64,000 bases of DNA from Halobacillus karajensis (GTDB lineage Bacteria > Bacillota > Bacilli > Bacillales > Halobacillaceae): positions 248,001 through 312,000 of the forward strand of contig NZ_FNWW01000002.1 in NCBI RefSeq assembly GCF_900108515.1. The letters are read 5' to 3'. Position 1 is the stretch's first letter. Each line of letters starts with the position of its first letter. The notes under the pieces are model-generated. The model did no database searches. It was not told where the DNA came from and worked only from the letters and a program-made list of their open reading frames with translations. The position numbers were made by a program, and so were the translations under genes. Shown here in pieces: positions 28,942-58,573 of the stretch.

Positions 28942-28987
28942 TAGTATGCCCGGTAAAATCTAGAAAAATACGAAAGCGAATGACTGT

Positions 28988-29197
28988 AAAGGGAGAGACC
29001 ACGTATGTGGCGCCGAAGGAGCAAGCAATCATTTGTGAATCTCTCAGGCAAAAAGACCTTTATAGGACGCAACTCTGGAGAGTGTTTGCATTTTGTATGC
29101 AAACCACCCAAGAAGCAAGCGTCAGGTTTTCCTGACGTCAATCTTTCTGGTGAAACGGACAGAGACTCTCGCGCAAGCGGTGAAGTCTCTTTTTTTA
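28988..29197 (+). ncRNA. Tandem glycine riboswitch with terminator (gcvT leader)
   Basis: Two glycine aptamers lie head to tail. The first runs about 28991-29083 (GGGAGAGA, CGCCGAAGGAGCAA, TCTCTCAGGC ... GGACGCAACTCTGGAGAG) and the second about 29103-29175 (CCACCCAAGAAGCAAGC, a GTCAGG/CCTGAC hairpin, ATCTTTCTGGT, GGACAGAGACTC). The 3' strand of aptamer II overlaps AGAGACT at 29161-29167, which can pair with AGTCTCT at 29184-29190 before a T-run. Glycine binding should therefore prevent termination and turn on the glycine cleavage genes, as known for B. subtilis gcvT. Confidence 0.92.
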
Positions 29198-29227
29198 TGG
29201 GCGAAATCAGTTAAAGGAGTGGGATTA

Positions 29228-30331
29228 TTGACAGATTTAAAACGAACACCTTTATTTGCTGAGTACAAAAAGCTGGGAGCAAAAACCATTGACTTTGGTG
29301 GTTGGGATTTACCTGTCCAATTTTCGAGCATCAAGGAAGAACATGAAGCGACTCGCACAGCGGCAGGTTTGTTTGATGTATCCCACATGGCAGAAGTAAT
29401 GGTGGAAGGAAAGGATAGCCTTAGTTTTTTGCAGAGAATGCTCACCAATGATGTTTCTAAATTAGAACCTGGGAAAGCCCAATACACGATTATGTGCTAT
29501 GAAGACGGTGGCACAGTCGATGATTTAATCGTTTATCATCTTGCTGAATATAAGTACCTTCTTGTAGTGAATGCAGCAAATCGTGTGAAGGACTATGAAT
29601 GGCTGAAGAAACACATCCAAGGTGAAGAAGTAACCATCGAAGATGTCTCTGATGAATATGTCCAGTTGGCTATTCAAGGTCCAAAAGCAGAACAAACACT
29701 CCAGACTATAACCGATTCAGACCTTTCAGACATTAAGTTCTTCCGTTTCAAGCAGGGGGTAACGTTAAAAGGGGTAGATGGGGAAGCCCTTATTTCTCGC
29801 ACTGGATACACAGGGGAAGATGGTTTTGAAATCTATCTGCATGCAAATTCGGGAGCTCAGTTGTGGCAGGCCATTCTTGAGGCAGGCGAGCCTTACGGAT
29901 TAAAACCTGTGGGTCTTGGAGCCCGGGATACCCTCCGATTTGAAGCAAATTTAGCTTTGTATGGTCAGGAACTAAGTGAGAAGGTCACACCAATAGAAGC
30001 AGGGCTGAATTTTGCAGTTAAAGTGAATAAAGAAACCGACTTTATTGGTAAAGAGGCTTTAAAACGACAAAAGGAAGAAGGCCCTGCTAGGAAACTGGTT
30101 GGAATCGAAATGATGGATAAAGGGATCCCGCGAACACACTATGAGGTTTTGGCTGGAGAGGAAGTTATCGGTTTTATAACGACTGGTACACAGTCTCCAA
30201 CCTTGGGTAAAAATGTTGGTCTCGCTCTGATTAACAGCCAATATACAGCAGAAGGCACAGAGGTGACGGTTCAAGTACGTAAGCGTAAATTGAAAGCCAA
30301 AGTTGTTAAAACACCTTTTTACAAAAGATAA
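29228..30331 (+). CDS. gcvT: Aminomethyltransferase (glycine cleavage T protein)
   Basis: Transfers the methylene group from the lipoyl-bound intermediate to tetrahydrofolate, releasing ammonia. 367 residues from TTG 29228 after AAAGGAGTGG. The family sequences [34 protein letters not shown] and [11 protein letters not shown] are present. First gene of gcvT-gcvPA-gcvPB under the glycine riboswitch. The H protein is not in this window. Confidence 0.96.
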
Positions 30332-30348
30332 CTGAGGGGGATGGAAGT

Positions 30349-31698
30349 ATGGAGTTTCGTTATTTACCTATGACAGACACCGATAAAAAGGAAATGCTAA
30401 AGGGGATAGGTGTCCAGGATTCTGATGAATTGTTCTCAGACATCCCGGAAGGCGTTCGTTTGAAGGGTGATCTGGAAATCAAACCACCGAAAAATGAATA
30501 TCAATTAATGAAAGAGCTGACAGAGCTTGCGGGAAAAAATATAAATTTAAAATCTCATACCTCTTTCCTTGGAGCGGGTGTATACGATCATTACATACCG
30601 TCCATTGTTGATCATGTTATTTCCAGGTCAGAATTTTACACCGCTTACACTCCATACCAACCTGAAATTTCTCAAGGTGAATTGCAGGCGATTTTTGAAT
30701 TTCAGACGATGATCTGTGAACTGACAGGCATGGATGTTGCGAACTCTTCTATGTATGATGGCGGAACCGCCCTCGCAGAAGCTGTTAATTTATCTGCAGG
30801 TCAAACGAAGAAAAAGAAGGTATTGGTATCAAAAGCGATTCACCCTGAATCAATGGCTGTCATTCATTCCTATGTGAAAGGGCCTGGAGTAGAAGTGATA
30901 GAAATAGATCACAAGGATGGAAAAACGGATGTGAAACAGCTAGAAGAAGAGCTGGATGAAAACACAGCCAGTGTTGTCGTCCAGTACCCAAACTTTTTTG
31001 GTCAAATTGAACCTCTAGATGAAATTCGTTCTATTGTTGATACACAAAAGAAAACCATGATGATCACATCCAGCAATCCTTTATCATTAGGCTACTTAAC
31101 TCCTCCAGGTGAATTTGGAGCAGATATTGTTGTTGGTGATGCCCAGGTATTTGGAATCCCTGCTCAATACGGTGGACCCCATTGTGGATACTTTGCGACA
31201 ACAAAAAAATTAATGAGGAAAGTTCCAGGACGTCTCGTTGGTCAGACAGTTGACGAGGAAGGCCGCCGTGGCTTTGTATTGACTTTACAGGCAAGGGAAC
31301 AACATATTCGCCGTGATAAAGCGACGTCAAATATTTGTTCCAATCAGGCTTTGAATGCTCTTGCTTCCTCTGTAGCGATGTCCTCGCTCGGTAAACAAGG
31401 GTTGAAAAAGATGGCCTGGATGAATATCCAGAAAACGTCTTATTTAAAAAAACAATTACAAAAGAGGGGCATCGAAATTGTTTATGACGGGCCGTTTTTT
31501 AATGAAATTGTTATAAATCTAAACCAAAACATTCAAGAGATGAATAAAGAGCTTCTCACAAAAGGGATTATCGGTGGATACGATCTTGGTGAGGTTGATG
31601 AAAACCTCAATGGCTGCATGCTTGTTGCTGTAACCGAAATCCGAACAAAAGAAGAAATGGATACGTTCGTTAAGGAAGTGGGTGATCTTCATGACTAA
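30349..31698 (+). CDS. gcvPA: Glycine dehydrogenase (decarboxylating) subunit 1
   Basis: N-terminal half of the split P protein, which decarboxylates glycine and passes aminomethyl to the lipoyl H protein. 449 residues with the family stretch [13 protein letters not shown] and a PLP fold type I scaffold without the Schiff-base lysine, which is in gcvPB. ATG after GAGGGGG. It overlaps the start of gcvPB by 8 bases. Confidence 0.95.
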
Positions 31699-33154
31699 TC
31701 AAGACTTTCCGTTGATTTTTGAATTGAGTCAAGAGAGTCGAACGGGTTTTAGTTTGCCGGAATTAGATGTACCGGAAGTGGATGTGGATGAAATGATTGG
31801 AGAGGCATATGTCAGAAAGAGTGAACCGAATTTACCAGAAGTAAGTGAGCTTCAAATCATAAGACATTACACAGCACTATCCAAACGTAACCATGGGGTG
31901 GATTCTGGGTTTTATCCGTTAGGTTCTTGTACAATGAAATATAATCCGAAAATGAATGAGGATGTTGCCCGTCTTACTGGCTTCAGTCATATACACCCTT
32001 ATCAGCCGGTAGAGACGGTTCAAGGTGCCTTGCATTTAATGTATGACCTGCAGGAATCCCTTGCTGCTATTACGGGGATGGATACTGTGACACTACAACC
32101 AGCAGCGGGCGCTCATGGAGAATGGACGGGGCTTATGATGATTCGTGCCTACCATGAAGCAAACGGCGACTATAATCGTACGAAAGTAATCGTTCCGGAC
32201 TCAGCTCATGGGACGAATCCAGCTTCTGCGACCGTGGCAGGCTTTGAGGCTGTGACAGTTAAGTCTGATGAGAGAGGACTTGTGGATCTGGAAGACCTGA
32301 AACAAGTGGTAGATGAAAAGACAGCTGCTTTGATGCTTACAAATCCGAACACCCTCGGGCTTTTTGAAGAAGATATTGAAGAAATGGCATCCATTGTCCA
32401 TGGGGCGGGCGGAAAACTTTATTATGATGGGGCAAACCTTAATGCGATACTTGGTTACGCACGTCCAGGAGATATGGGGTTTGACGTTGTTCACTTAAAC
32501 CTTCATAAAACTTTTACAGGCCCTCATGGCGGAGGAGGCCCTGGTTCTGGCCCGGTGGGTGTTACGGCAGAGTTTGCCGAGTACTTACCTAAACCAATTT
32601 TAACAGTGGAGAATGGGCTATATGTATTTGATTATGATCGTCCACAATCCATTGGCCGAGTTAAGCCTTTTTATGGAAACTTTGGGATCAATGTGCGTGC
32701 ATATACGTATATCCGTACAATGGGTCCTGAAGGGTTAAAAAAGGTGAGTGAATACGCTGTTCTAAACGCGAATTATATGATGCGCCGCCTTCAGGAAGAA
32801 TTTGATCTTCCTTTTGACCGCCATTGCAAACATGAATTTATTTTGTCAGGAAAACGTCAGAAGAAGTTAGGTGTCCGTACTTTGGATATGGCTAAACGAC
32901 TGCTTGATTTTGGTTACCATCCACCTACTATCTATTTCCCTATTAATGTAGAGGAAGCATTGATGGTTGAGCCGACAGAAACCGAGTCCAAAGAGACGTT
33001 GGATGACTTTATTGATAATATGATACAAATTGCAAACGAAGCAAGAAATGAGCCTGAAAAAGTTCAAGATGCACCTCATACTACCATTGTCAATCGTATG
33101 GATGAAACATTAGCAGCACGTAAGCCTGTCTTGAGATATCAAAAAGAAGATTAA
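31691..33154 (+). CDS. gcvPB: Glycine dehydrogenase (decarboxylating) subunit 2
   Basis: C-terminal half of the split P protein; it carries the PLP-binding lysine in [14 protein letters not shown]. 487 residues from ATG 31691, as in B. subtilis; GTG 31682 is the alternative. The family sequence [14 protein letters not shown] is near the N-terminus. Last gene of the operon, closed by a strong terminator. Confidence 0.95.
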
Positions 33155-53139: not shown

Positions 53140-54018
53140 GTGCAATTAACGGAATATTTAAAAGAAAAAAAGCAGTTGATTAATCAGCAATTGGAACTCT
53201 ATGTGCGAGACTATTCTGTCCCCGGCAGGCTCCAGGATTCCATTCTGCATTCCGTTCATGCAGGAGGAAAAAGGTTAAGACCCATTTTGCTATTAGCAAC
53301 AGCACAAGCGTTTGAGGTTCAAGAAGAGAAAGTACTTGGTGTTGCCTCAGCTCTTGAAATGGTTCATACCTATTCGCTTATTCATGATGACCTTCCTGCC
53401 ATGGACAATGATGACTTGAGAAGAGGGAAACCTACCAATCATAAACGTTTTGATGAAGCAACAGCTATCCTTGCCGGGGATGCTTTATTGACATTGAGTA
53501 TGCAAGTAATTGCAGAAGATCCCCATCTTAGTGATAGTGAGCGTATTTACCTCATTCAAGAATTGTCAAAAGCTAGTGGAGCAAAAGGAATGGTCGAAGG
53601 TCAAATGCAGGATATGCTGAGTGAAAATGTAGAGGTATCATTAGAGAAGCTTGAGAACATCCACAAAAATAAAACTGGTCAATTGCTTAAATTTTCCATC
53701 TTGACTGGAGCCTATTTAGGTGGTGTAACCGATAAGGTTCTAACAGAAATGATCAAGATGGCTGAGGCTCTAGGCCTTATTTTTCAAATTCAAGATGATA
53801 TATTGGATATTACAGGCGATGCGTCGGTCATTGGTAAACCGACAGGGAGTGATGAGGGGAATCATAAAAGCACATACCCTCAGCTGTTAGGGCTGGAAGG
53901 CGCTATAGATCAAAAAGAGAAGTATGTCCAAAGGGCATTAGAGAATTTGAAGAATGCAAATATAGAAGGTTCGACCCTCTCTCAGCTCATTCAATATCTC
54001 AGTATCCGAGATCATTGA
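53140..54018 (+). CDS. ispA: Farnesyl/geranyl diphosphate synthase
   Basis: Prenyl transferase that condenses isopentenyl and allylic diphosphates for quinones, undecaprenyl carrier and others. 292 residues. The first aspartate-rich motif is DDLPAMDNDD (from about residue 83), the second is DDILD, and GGKRLRP binds diphosphate. GTG start 3 bases after xseB, with GGAGGAAG. With dxs downstream it brackets the OLE RNA. Confidence 0.95.
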   Translation: MQLTEYLKEKKQLINQQLELYVRDYSVPGRLQDSILHSVHAGGKRLRPILLLATAQAFEVQEEKVLGVASALEMVHTYSLIHDDLPAMDNDDLRRGKPTNHKRFDEATAILAGDALLTLSMQVIAEDPHLSDSERIYLIQELSKASGAKGMVEGQMQDMLSENVEVSLEKLENIHKNKTGQLLKFSILTGAYLGGVTDKVLTEMIKMAEALGLIFQIQDDILDITGDASVIGKPTGSDEGNHKSTYPQLLGLEGAIDQKEKYVQRALENLKNANIEGSTLSQLIQYLSIRDH

Positions 54019-54032
54019 GGAAAGTATTTCAA

Positions 54033-54061
54033 TTGAGACATATGACAAAATGTGATATATT
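54033..54061 (+). promoter_or_regulatory. Promoter of OLE RNA
   Basis: TTGAGA 54033-54038, a 17-base spacer and TATATT 54056-54061 preceded by TGA (extended -10). It points to an RNA start near 54068. Confidence 0.6.
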
Positions 54062-54067
54062 ATGATT

Positions 54068-54660
54068 ATAAAAGGAATGGTGCAGTATTCTAGTCGGCCC
54101 TCCGTTCCTGAAGGCGGGCCTAAAAATCCGCCGAAGGGCACATCGATGAAGTTCCTTGTGTTGGCTTGAGGCGCCCAGCCTTGGGTCAATGCTGGGAGTT
54201 AAGGTCGCAGGGCGATCCACAAAGGCATGTGGGCGTTGACCCTGCTTCCGCGGAGGCCCATTATTGTAACAGCTTCTGAGCCAGATGCTGTTATGAAATG
54301 GGGTATGAACCTGCAGCATATGGAGTGAAATCTATATGCGCAGCGTAGCCTGCCTTGAGTGGTTTTTGAGGGGATTATAGTCATGAACATCACGCAGCTT
54401 CAGATGGCCACTGAGGTGCTGGTGTATAAGCTATATGAAATCATAACTGCAAAAGAGGCTAGGGAACGGCTAAAGGCTGTCGGGGAAATCCCCTAGACTG
54501 TTCTTTGGACATGATTCAGGAATTATAGTGCGGACTAAGTGGCAATCTAGTCCAGTTTCCGGAGACGGAGCTGAGTCGAGTTTAAAGGGGAACCGCCAGA
54601 ATGGTGACATTCGGTACTCGATTGGGAAAACCTACTAGACCTAAGCCGCAATTTTTACTT
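54068..54660 (+). ncRNA. ole: OLE RNA (ornate large extremophilic RNA)
   Basis: About 590 bases without a supported open frame lie between ispA and a DUF21-like membrane gene, the context known for OLE RNA in B. halodurans. Many local helices are visible: 54113-54117/54128-54132, 54174-54179/54191-54196, 54208-54212/54240-54244, 54268-54273/54287-54292, 54482-54485/54490-54493, 54532-54537/54548-54553, 54574-54581/54616-54623, and 54599-54603/54608-54612 with a GTGA tetraloop. The GC content is higher than that of nearby genes. OLE RNA is membrane-bound through OapA and supports growth under cold, alcohol or Mg stress. The 3' end is approximate; no terminator is seen before oapA. Confidence 0.85.
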
Positions 54661-54721
54661 GAATCATGACCATTCCTTTCTATACATACGGTTTCTAAAT
54701 TTACTGATATAGAGGTTTGTA

Positions 54722-55321
54722 ATGGACAATAAATTAAAAAAATCTGTACAATTCAGTTTGAGTATCGCCGTTATCACATTCGTGTTAGCGGCTATTTTTT
54801 CAGTTATATCTTCCTCCGTCTTAAGCGGAGTTATATGGATCATCGGCCTCGTCATTGTATTCATTATCGTCTTTACAGGGGTCTTCTTTGATATGCTCGG
54901 GATTGCGGCAACGGCTGCGGAAGAAAAACCTTTCCACGCAATGGCCTCTGAAAAGGTCAGTGGTGCTAAAGAAGCGATTGCAATCGTCAGAAATGCGGAT
55001 CGATTCGCAAGTTTCTGTAATGACGTTATAGGGGATATATCTGGTATAATTAGTGGAACGGCCTCAGCTGTCGTTGTCATTCAGCTCGCCAATAATTTCG
55101 GCTATAGTGATGGTTCAACGGTTCAAATTGTTATTTCCGTCATTCTTACTAGTATTGTTGCTGCCCTTACTGTAGGCGGTAAAGCTCTCGGAAAATTCTT
55201 TGCTGTTCATAAGTCGACGGATATTATTTTTTTTGCTGCCAAAGCAATTGCATGGTTAGAAAAGAGACTGAAAGTAAGAATAGTAACAAGTGCATCGTCG
55301 TCCACTAAAAAATCAAGATAA
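54722..55321 (+). CDS. oapA: OLE-associated membrane protein OapA
   Basis: 199 residues with about four membrane helices (about 9-30, 32-55, 112-130, 138-158), a loop FFDMLGIAATAAEEKPFHAMASEKV and a basic tail RLKVRIVTSASSSTKKSR. The pattern agrees with the DUF21/CNNM transmembrane domain to which OapA belongs. In B. halodurans this protein binds OLE RNA directly and anchors it in the membrane. ATG follows AGAGGT. Directly downstream of OLE RNA and 18 bases before dxs. Confidence 0.87.
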   Translation: MDNKLKKSVQFSLSIAVITFVLAAIFSVISSSVLSGVIWIIGLVIVFIIVFTGVFFDMLGIAATAAEEKPFHAMASEKVSGAKEAIAIVRNADRFASFCNDVIGDISGIISGTASAVVVIQLANNFGYSDGSTVQIVISVILTSIVAALTVGGKALGKFFAVHKSTDIIFFAAKAIAWLEKRLKVRIVTSASSSTKKSR

Positions 55322-55339: not shown

Positions 55340-57232
55340 ATGGATCTGTGTAAAATCAAAGACCCTTCGATTTTGAAGGAAATGAATATGAAGCAACTAG
55401 AACAACTGGCGGAAGAAACGAGGCAATTTCTCATTGAAAACTTATCTACGACAGGTGGGCATTTAGGTGCCAATCTTGGAGTTGTAGAATTAACACTTGC
55501 CTTGCATAAAGTTTATAAGAGTCCTGAAGATCGTTTTATTTGGGATGTAGGACACCAATCCTATATTCATAAAATTTTGACTGGTCGTGGCAGTCAGTTT
55601 GATACATTACGTCAATATAAGGGCTTATGCGGTTTTCCAAAACGTGATGAAAGTGAACATGACGTATGGGAAACCGGCCATAGCTCTACATCCTTATCTG
55701 CTGCTATGGGAATGGCCATTGCCAGGGACTTAAAGAATGAGAATCATTCCATCTTACCTATTATCGGTGATGGCGCTTTAACCGGTGGTATGGCACTTGA
55801 AGCATTGAATCACATCGGACACGAGAAGAAGAATGTAACGGTTATTCTCAATGATAATGAAATGTCGATTGCTAAGAATGTTGGTGCTCTTCATGGCGCT
55901 CTTGGGCGGATGAGAAGCGCAGGGAAATACCACCGTGTCAAAGATGATCTTGAATGGGTACTGAAAAAAATCCCTGCCGTGGGAGGAAGAATCGCCCAGG
56001 CTGCTGAACGGTTAAAAGACAGTATGAAGTATTTTGTTGTGCCGGGTATGTTTTTTGAAGAGCTTGGATTTACTTATTATGGTCCAGTGGACGGGCATGA
56101 TTTCAATGACTTAATTGAAAACTTGAACTATGCGAAAAAAACCGATGGGCCAGTTATTGTTCATGTGATGACTCAAAAAGGAAAAGGGTATCATCCGGCT
56201 GAAACAGATGTAAAAGATAAATGGCATGGAGTTGGCCCATATAAGATCGAATCCGGTGAAAAAATTAAACCTGTGGACGCGCCACCAGCATGGAGTTCTG
56301 TTATAAGTGAAGCTCTTCGTCAGGAAGCTCGGCAGGACTCAAGGATTGTGGCTGTAACGCCTGCTATGATTCTTGGCTCGAAATTAGAAAAGTTTGGAGA
56401 AGAGTTTCCAGACCGTTTATTTGATGTTGGAATTGCAGAACAACACGCGACGACTATGTCAGCAGGGCTTGCAACTCAGGGGATGAAACCATTCCTTGCC
56501 ATTTATTCCACTTTTCTACAACGGGGATATGATCAAGTGGTCCATGATGTAGCTAGACAAAAGCTTAATGTCATATTTGGCATTGATCGTGCCGGGCTTG
56601 TTGGCGCGGACGGTGAAACCCATCAGGGTGTATTTGACATTGCTTTTCTAAGGTCTATCCCAAACATGGTTATAACGATGCCTAAAGATGAAAATGAAGC
56701 TCAGCATCTTGTCCATACAGCAACAAAATATGATGATGGACCTTTTGCTATACGTTATCCACGTGGGAATGCAAAGGATGTTGCAACAGATGAACACACC
56801 CGCACTATACCTGTAGGCAGTTGGGAAGTCCTAAAAGAAGGTTCAGATGGTGTTATTTTAACGTTTGGTACCACTATAGATATGGCTTTAGAAGCAAGTG
56901 AAAAGATGGAAAAAGAAGGGCGTTCAATCAAAGTCGTCAATGCACGATATATTAAACCATTAGATGATGGAATGCTTCATGATCTTATGAAATCAAGAAT
57001 GCCAATTTTAACAGTAGAAGAAGCTGTATTGAAAGGCGGTTTTGGTTCAAGTATCTTGGAGTTTGCAGAAGAAAATGGGTATACTTCCCAATGGATCAAA
57101 CGTATTGGTGTTCCAGACCGATTTATTGAGCATGGCAGTGTACCAAAATTGTGGGAAGAAATTGGCTTAACACGAGAAAATATCGTCCAGCAAATGAAAC
57201 AATTGATTCCTAATAAACAGCAAAGGGCATAA
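55340..57232 (+). CDS. dxs: 1-deoxy-D-xylulose-5-phosphate synthase
   Basis: TPP-dependent first enzyme of the MEP isoprenoid pathway. 630 residues. [12 protein letters not shown] and the TPP motif [15 protein letters not shown] ... LNDNEMSI lie in the N-terminal half; the transketolase-like domain has [15 protein letters not shown], and the C-terminal domain is complete. ATG after AAGGGGG. It uses the same pathway as ispA upstream of OLE. Confidence 0.96.
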
Positions 57233-57236
57233 AGTC

Positions 57237-58061
57237 ATGGGCAGAAAAGTAAGACTTGATGTATTATTAGTGGAAAAGGGATATATAGAGACACGTGAAA
57301 AAGCCAAACGGACGATTATGGCGGGCCTTGTTTTCCATAATCAAAACCGTTTAGATAAGCCGGGTTTAAAGATTGAAGAGGATGTGGAACTAACTGTTAA
57401 AGGCAAAGCTATACCATATGTAAGTCGTGGCGGTTTGAAATTAGAGAAAGCCTTGAAGTTTTTTGAGCTTTCTTTGAAAGATAAAATTATGATTGACATA
57501 GGGTCATCAACAGGAGGATTTACAGACTGCGGGTTACAAAATGGTGTGAAGGTAAGTTATGCCATTGACGTGGGGTACAACCAGTTGGACTGGAGGCTCC
57601 GCAATCATGAACAAGTGATTGTTATGGAACGAACCAATTTCCGGTATGTGACCAAAGAGGATTTAACAGAGGGACAACCCCAATTTGCCTCTATTGATGT
57701 TTCCTTCATTTCTTTACGTCTTATACTTCCAGTCCTGGCAACGATTCTGGAAGAAAAGGGTGATGTAGTTGCTCTGATTAAACCTCAATTTGAAGCAGGG
57801 CGAGAACAAGTGGGCAAAAAAGGAATTGTTAAAGATCCATCTATTCATAGAGAGGTCATTGAAACAATTCTTGATTTTGCAACCCGACACGGCTACTCTG
57901 TACATGGACTCACGTTTTCACCGATTACAGGGGGAGACGGAAATATAGAATTTCTCGTCCATCTCTGTTTGGATGGTGAAGGAAGTGGAACGGTTTTAGA
58001 GGATATAGATATCGGAGCGGTCGTCGATGAAGCGCATGAAGCGCATCACAAAAACGCATAA
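57237..58061 (+). CDS. yqxC: TlyA-family rRNA 2'-O-methyltransferase YqxC
   Basis: S4 RNA-binding domain (about 5-65, with [12 protein letters not shown]) fused to a FtsJ-like SAM methyltransferase domain ([16 protein letters not shown]). 274 residues. By family it modifies rRNA; older literature calls the family hemolysin A, but a hemolytic role is doubtful. ATG 4 bases after dxs, with CAAAGGG as ribosome site. Confidence 0.92.
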
Positions 58062-58068
58062 TGTATGT

Positions 58069-58096
58069 AAAAGGGCTTATGAAAGGCCCTTTTCTT
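58069..58096 (+). terminator. Terminator between yqxC and argR
   Basis: AAAAGGGC 58069-58076 pairs with GCCCTTTT 58086-58093. It probably reduces but may not stop read-through. Confidence 0.7.
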
Positions 58097-58123
58097 ATGG
58101 AAGGACTGAAACGGAGGATGGTC

Positions 58124-58573
58124 ATGAACAAAGGACAACGTCATATCAAAATCAGGGAATTGATCACGAATGACGATATTGAAACCCAGGATGAGTTAGT
58201 CGATCGCTTAAAGGGGATGGGTTATAATGTGACCCAGGCCACAGTTTCACGGGACATAAAAGAATTGCATCTTGTTAAAGTTCCTATGATGGACGGGCGC
58301 TACAAATACAGTCTGCCTGCAGACCAGCGTTTTAATCCATTTGAGAAATTGAAGCGCTTAATGATGGATGCTTTTGTCAGTATAGATCGTGCTGGTCATT
58401 TTATTATTTTGAAAACCCTGCCGGGAAATGCAAATGCGGTTGGTGCACTTGTCGATAATTTAGAGTGGGATGAAATTATGGGTACCATTTGCGGGGATGA
58501 TACATGTTTAATTATCTGCCGCAGTGAAGAACAAACGGAAACGATAAGTGAGCAGTTGCTCAATATGCTATAA
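58124..58573 (+). CDS. argR: Arginine repressor ArgR/AhrC
   Basis: Hexameric arginine-sensing regulator of arginine synthesis and breakdown. 149 residues from ATG 58124 (after GGAGGATGG), the same length as B. subtilis AhrC. N-terminal winged helix with [19 protein letters not shown]-terminal arginine-binding domain with [13 protein letters not shown] and [14 protein letters not shown]. Confidence 0.95.

Follow-up and report, generated by a model that had tools for sequence, protein, structure and literature searches.

OLE RNA ranks with the largest of the conserved bacterial RNAs whose biochemical job is not known. In other species, according to published work, the RNA dimerises through its P4, P5/P6 and P9 loops and is brought to the membrane by the protein OapA, and the OLE particle is required when cells face cold, alcohol, Mg2+ or poor-carbon stress. 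The location of ole among isoprenoid and other basic genes was already described for the class in PMC12265935, and variant types with P7, P8 and P9 shortened or missing are distinguished in PMC11332333. Here we analysed a 64,000-nucleotide stretch of Halobacillus karajensis DNA (contig NZ_FNWW01000002.1, positions 248,001 to 312,000; hereafter the window, to which coordinates refer) from a 4.07-Mb draft genome of 24 contigs. A region of this window is, with near certainty, the complete ole-oapA gene pair of a Halobacillus. Our literature search found no paper joining OLE RNA and Halobacillus.

The Rfam model of OLE (RF01071) matched positions 54061-54689 on the + strand with 509.5 bits (gathering threshold, 50 bits; E = 1.6e-146) over model positions 1-616, untruncated, which bore out the identity proposed in a preliminary description made from the letters alone. 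OLE was the sole Rfam family matching over the RNA and gave a single match in the draft genome. P7, P8 and P9 were all aligned, corresponding to the full-length type. The window OLE is thus a real, full member of a known, still unexplained class, and the copy itself is unsurprising. Phage records searched for OLE gave no match. ispA stops at 54018 and oapA starts at 54722, which leaves 703 bases between them, more than the approximately 590 bases without a credible gene given in the preliminary description; the Rfam match fills 54061-54689 of this gap. The placement of dxs after the membrane-protein gene was as that description had it. The locus is composed as follows.

53140-54018, + strand: ispA, farnesyl diphosphate synthase, a neighbouring gene (NF045485, 386.7 bits)
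54033-54061, + strand: putative OLE promoter, with -35 TTGAGA (54033-54038), a 17-nt spacer and an extended -10 TATATT (54056-54061, TG before the -10)
54061-54689, + strand: OLE RNA (RF01071, full model 1-616); mature RNA probably about 54067-54680, judged from the promoter and P1
54722-55321, + strand: oapA, encoding a 199-residue membrane protein of predicted CNNM fold with DxxxD at residues 101-105
55340-57232, + strand: dxs, 1-deoxy-D-xylulose-5-phosphate synthase, a neighbouring gene (TIGR00204, 918.5 bits)

Open reading frames of 64, 83 and 96 codons antisense to the RNA, and one of 138 over its 3' end, were taken as chance frames. Five promoter-like sites were found, compared with 2.9 +/- 1.8 in shuffles, and one such site alone is weak evidence. 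Other OLE RNAs came from 230 fetched loci, a non-random sample made of the 30 best-scoring loci from each of two large searches, 140 hand-picked from the listed matches, and 30 re-searched genomes (29 outside the host order and mostly of low score, one inside), where the host order is that of H. karajensis (GTDB: Bacillales). After seven contig-end fragments (L230-L236) were left out, the window and 223 loci gave an alignment of 224 rows, 82 from the host order and 142 from outside. A promoter site scoring at least 10 was found upstream of OLE in 73 of the 82 host-order rows and 101 of 139 others, when compared to 3.8% of shuffled upstream stretches. The extended -10 promoter given in the preliminary description is present. 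Transcription should start near 54067, because the promoter ends just before P1.

The structural elements of the RNA were located as listed below.

54071-54081, + strand: 5' strand of P1, pairing with 54669-54679 (11 base pairs)
54095-54108, + strand: 5' strand of P3.1/P3, pairing with 54463-54479 (5 + 7 base pairs)
54113-54132, + strand: P4 hairpin with an A-rich loop, a dimer contact in published structures
54141-54148, + strand: palindrome CATCGATG in the P4a region, the putative OapA site by published mapping (PMC12265935), the placing being our own
54144-54151, + strand: 5' strand of a candidate kink-turn, C-GAU-GA-AG, the OapC site, placed after the text of PMC9723947
54203-54249, + strand: P6, the bS21 helix in Halalkalibacterium halodurans (H. 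halodurans), with a U.U mismatch at 54205/54247 and a C.U mismatch at 54206/54246
54405-54410, + strand: P9 loop palindrome UGGCCA, a dimer kissing loop in published structures
54463-54479, + strand: 3' strand of P3/P3.1, pairing with 54095-54108
54599-54612, + strand: P13 tip hairpin with a GUGA (GNRA) loop, the OapB site in published work, assigned here by sequence
54669-54679, + strand: 3' strand of P1, pairing with 54071-54081

P1 and P3 are left unpaired in the Rfam model. Both helices were supported, because the computed pairing was stronger for two strands from one species than for strands exchanged across species (P1, -17.1 vs -9.4 kcal/mol in 222 rows; P3, -16.8 vs -7.7 kcal/mol in 224 rows), and P1, as predicted, ties both ends of the RNA together. 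The P4 loop carried the 8-mer CCTAAAAA or GCTAAAAA in 212 of the 224 OLE RNAs. In the P9 loop, GGCC was found in 188 rows, AGCT in five and GATC in one; the other 30 rows had none of the three, and in 12 of them the stretch itself was absent. The GTGA hairpin that the preliminary description had seen near the 3' end (GAATG-GTGA-CATTC, 54599-54612) turned out to be the tip of P13, a GNRA tetraloop in all 224 aligned RNAs. The letters of the dimer contacts in the P4, P5.1, P6.1 and P9 loops were all present. Helix lengths varied in P7, P8, P9 and P11 and little in most others, and many unpaired positions were near invariant. The kink-turn letters were present as well, and covariation gave no discrimination between k-turns 1a and 1b; the columns in question co-varied most strongly with unrelated positions, as expected from kinship alone. 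The same description had assigned the kink-turn to OapB, which needs correction: in the published text the kink-turn is the OapC site, and OapB binds P13/P12.2 (PMC9723947, PMC12265935).

The predicted model of OapA contained four long helices (residues 3-36, 39-65, 92-125 and 133-163), which we read as membrane helices, in agreement with the four-helix membrane protein described earlier; the third was marginally hydrophobic on the Kyte-Doolittle scale. The expected match to DUF21/OapA was clear by predicted fold and weak by sequence. Alignment of Foldseek matches with VIA-align placed residues 37-173 on the membrane domain of 7m1t, 7m1u, 7cff and 7cfg, whereas the CNNM/DUF21 family (PF01595) gave 22 bits (E = 1.4e-4), under the Pfam gathering threshold of 28.4 bits. 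No NCBIfam match was found, and searches against solved structures with the single sequence or a profile found none up to E = 1. The protein is, by its model, related to CNNM in fold and is not filed as a CNNM member. The preliminary description had named two outcomes that would speak against it, no covariance match to OLE and no DUF21/OapA match downstream, and neither came out. D101 and D105 of the DxxxD motif, given as a mark of OapA in PMC11332333, were invariant across 33 OapA sequences, as were 24 columns in all. Among 38 relatives from named genomes, the 16 with 76-93% identity were all from Halobacillus, the next being from Gracilibacillus (72%), which by itself makes a Halobacillus the most likely host; none was found in the viral contigs searched.

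Both further partners that the preliminary description proposed to look for were found elsewhere in the genome. OapB, a KOW protein encoded between map and infA, matched 7k9b, "OLE-associated protein B", over residues 7-101 (E = 6e-32). OapC (YbxF), an L7Ae-like protein encoded between rpoC and rpsL as read from the open reading frames, scored 59.4 bits with PF01248, E = 4.8e-21 with 3v7e, and 112.6 bits with NF010125 (cut-off, 113).

The partners were then compared across 299 genomes of the host order, of which 173 contained OLE. OapA matched in 181 genomes; the 173 with E below 1e-40 were exactly the OLE genomes, and the other eight were weak (E = 6.5e-5 to 6.9e-4), lacked OLE, and are probably other CNNM proteins. 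This identical occurrence (173/173) supports, at the level of gene content, binding of OLE by OapA in this group. OapB (E of 1e-3 or below) was present in all 173 OLE genomes and in 41 of the 126 OLE-free ones, where several matches were weak (E = 1e-3 to 1e-6). OapC (E of 1e-15 or below) was detected in 279 genomes, covering 173/173 with OLE and 106/126 without, and none of the 20 misses had OLE. The host order is stricter than Bacillota as a whole, because across the phylum about 60% of OLE genomes have OapB and about 45% have OapC according to PMC11332333. A draw from the phylum showed OLE in 289 of 398 genomes. Proteins with the CorC_HlyC domain averaged 2.01 in the OLE genomes of the host order, against 3.27 in those without OLE (Mann-Whitney p = 1e-19, with no correction for kinship). 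All nine genomes with none had OLE, and the H. karajensis genome has one. This deficit repeats the published OLE-MpfA anticorrelation in one order with one domain as proxy. One OLE genome of the host order (G296) has eight such proteins, contrary to the general trend.

The order ispA-OLE-oapA was found in 80 of the 81 host-order loci, and dxs in 78. Outside the host order, OapA was downstream in 136 of 149 loci, in one case on the other strand. Contig-end fragments are among the 13 loci without it, and a distant OapA may be missed at E = 1e-8. In 15 of the 230 loci (e.g. L049, L061, L200 and L206), tlyA lay 23-89 bases after oapA with no dxs between. The tie of OLE to oapA is tighter than that to dxs, and the idea that OLE serves isoprenoid synthesis is therefore weakened.

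A whole OLE (399.8 bits, L306:3983-4647) was also detected on the Pusillibacter faecalis plasmid pMM59_01 (NZ_AP023421.1), accompanied by a CNNM-domain protein, dxs and tlyA. This 504-kb replicon was typed as conjugative, and the basic genes beside OLE suggest that it is a chromid.

The helix P6 differed from that of H. halodurans. Its 3' strand reads CCCTGCTTCC and does not form the paired Shine-Dalgarno/anti-Shine-Dalgarno mimic with CCUCCU seen there. At the pairs 54205/54247 and 54206/54246, both were standard in 136 of the 224 rows, both were pyrimidine-pyrimidine in 61, and 27 had other combinations. The 61 double mismatches were UU/UU in 41, UC/UU in 14 and UU/UC in six (5'/3' strand), and the neighbouring pair 54204-54248 was G-C in all of them. 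They accounted for 51 of the 82 host-order rows compared with 10 of the 142 outside. On an OLE tree built without P6 the mismatch state required approximately 13 changes, and at least 46 in each of 200 shuffles, so that the state is inherited, yet repeatedly gained or lost. CCUCCU occurred at P6 in only 12 of the 224 RNAs, including four host-order rows, and CCUCC in 43; the mimic is a trait of H. halodurans and not a defining feature of OLE. H. halodurans mutants altered in the mimic letters with pairing retained still bind bS21 (PMC12054373), which fits recognition of helix shape over letters. An exact-pattern search for the 16S tail in the H. karajensis draft returned nothing, leaving its own anti-Shine-Dalgarno unconfirmed as the standard one. 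A literature search combining OLE RNA, Shine-Dalgarno and tandem found none, with the limit that the P6 mismatches may be drawn in figures or supplements.

We propose that OapA would be the ion-handling core of a divalent-cation exporter of the MpfA/CorC type, without the cytosolic CBS plus CorC_HlyC module, and that the OLE dimer, held by OapA, would replace this module and gate OapA on its cytosolic side. The fold that OapA shares with Mg2+ exporters is predicted both here and in published work, and Fernando and Breaker have suggested that OLE takes the place of the CBS and CorC_HlyC part (PMC11332333). The published P5/P6 kink-turn switch with OapC and bS21 may feed in the translation state, this coupling being our own suggestion; OapB would stabilise domain 2 of OLE, and both domains would, in our preference, lie on the cytosolic side. 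The gating mechanism is tentative and falls somewhat short of an even balance. The whole explanation, comprising the identity of ole-oapA and a gated cation exporter with cytosolic OLE, we consider evenly poised. We also raise, as a rather doubtful extension, that OLE of the host order is a re-tuned form in which the P6 Shine-Dalgarno/anti-Shine-Dalgarno duplex is swapped for a conserved tandem U.U motif and the OapB-bound domain 2 is cytosolic. If true, ribosome mimicry by anti-Shine-Dalgarno letters and a membrane-crossing RNA would not be general mechanisms of OLE, which would act in the cytosol as the regulatory subunit of an ion transporter.

Alternatively, the main role of OLE might be to sense or store bS21 and other translation factors, OapA being an anchor devoid of ion function. 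bS21, which is encoded in the H. karajensis genome, binds P6 in H. halodurans, where losing bS21 has the same effect in cold and ethanol as losing OLE (PMC12054373); the OLE dimer also has a ribosome-like pocket (PMC12286853). However, bS21 mutants reproduce just some of the OLE phenotypes (PMC12054373), the scarcity of CCUCCU and the two P6 mismatches here fit poorly, and the 24 invariant columns in 33 OapA sequences exceed the needs of an anchor, making this account unlikely. The discoverers speculated about a ribozyme, for instance one making cyclic di-AMP. In size and conservation OLE is comparable to large ribozymes, as argued in PMC11332333, and the near-invariant unpaired positions agree with it, but dimer contacts and protein sites could equally explain such conservation and the texts consulted report no activity; we regard catalysis as quite improbable. 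That the stretch is a cis-acting leader of an oapA-dxs mRNA rather than an independent RNA is barely credible: it lies directly upstream on the same strand, and no terminator-like site was found on the + strand between the RNA and oapA, whereas P1 joins the RNA ends across species, OLE-oapA stays in the 15 loci where dxs is gone, and the OLE RNA of H. halodurans is abundant and processed at its 3' end (PMC12054373, PMC11332333).

Lyon and Breaker proposed in 2025 that OLE is an integral membrane RNA, in which P3 spans the bilayer and domain 2 (P1, P2 and P10-P15) lies outside near the cell wall with OapB, which, if still bound, would be periplasmic (PMC12265935). The published cryo-electron microscopy geometry and the OapA sites that flank P3 speak for this model (PMC12265935), and P3 is indeed a covarying helix with a mean of 14.1 predicted pairs. 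The spacing of its 5' strand was 23-24 nt in 199 of 202 sequences, after 29 of 231 were left out because their anchors were absent or wrongly ordered. We dropped this striking spacing as evidence that P3 is a membrane ruler, since it is matched elsewhere: P1, P4a, P5, P10 and the P12 region were as constant in length or more so. OapB binds domain 2, yet all 30 OapB frames had 0-18 residues before the start; they come from the top-scoring genomes among 214 that gave a match, and are therefore close relatives, H. karajensis included. Judged from frame length rather than from a signal-peptide predictor, OapB would have no room for a signal peptide in any of these 30 loci, and its most hydrophobic 15 residues averaged 1.15 to 1.91 on the Kyte-Doolittle scale. 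A literature search combining OLE RNA, OapB and signal peptide found none. The frames are evidence against the integral membrane RNA, not a disproof, as OapB might meet the RNA before insertion; on balance we judge a membrane-crossing OLE to be decidedly unlikely.

Two other features of the window were noted. argR (58061-58573, + strand; NF003281, 272.3 bits) lies in the same gene cluster as OLE-oapA, and binding of ArgR to OLE is mentioned as unpublished in PMC12054373 and PMC12265935. A tandem pair of glycine riboswitch aptamers (28980-29164, + strand; 72.9 and 35.5 bits) lies upstream of gcvT, gcvPA and gcvPB (29093-33154), which is an ordinary arrangement.

The additions to the known OLE system are the co-occurrence of OLE, OapA, OapB and OapC in the host order, the P6 variant and the OapB frames. 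Halobacillus contributes a halophilic host with known partners and a natural P6 variant, which separates bS21 binding by anti-Shine-Dalgarno letters from binding by helix shape, two ideas that H. halodurans by itself hardly distinguishes. With the signal peptide of OapB missing, the sidedness of the integral membrane RNA that has been proposed becomes a yes/no question.

When compared with the OLE ribonucleoprotein of H. halodurans ("bTOR"), the Halobacillus system shares the full-length RNA, oapA as the next gene, ispA and dxs as neighbours, and OapB, OapC and bS21 in the genome. It differs in P6, which lacks CCUCCU and has two adjacent pyrimidine mismatches, as in most sampled OLE RNAs of the host order; membrane location, abundance and stress role are described for H. 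halodurans, and Halobacillus is known here from its genome. OapA shares the predicted membrane-domain fold of residues 37-173 with the Mg2+ exporters MpfA, CorC and CorB (CNNM), and is distinguished from them by an extra N-terminal helix, the DxxxD motif, the lack of CBS and CorC_HlyC domains and the sequence score below the Pfam cut-off. Like GOLLD and ROOL, OLE is a large, structured RNA that forms multimers in published structures (PMC12286853), but it has no sequence kinship to them as far as Rfam shows.
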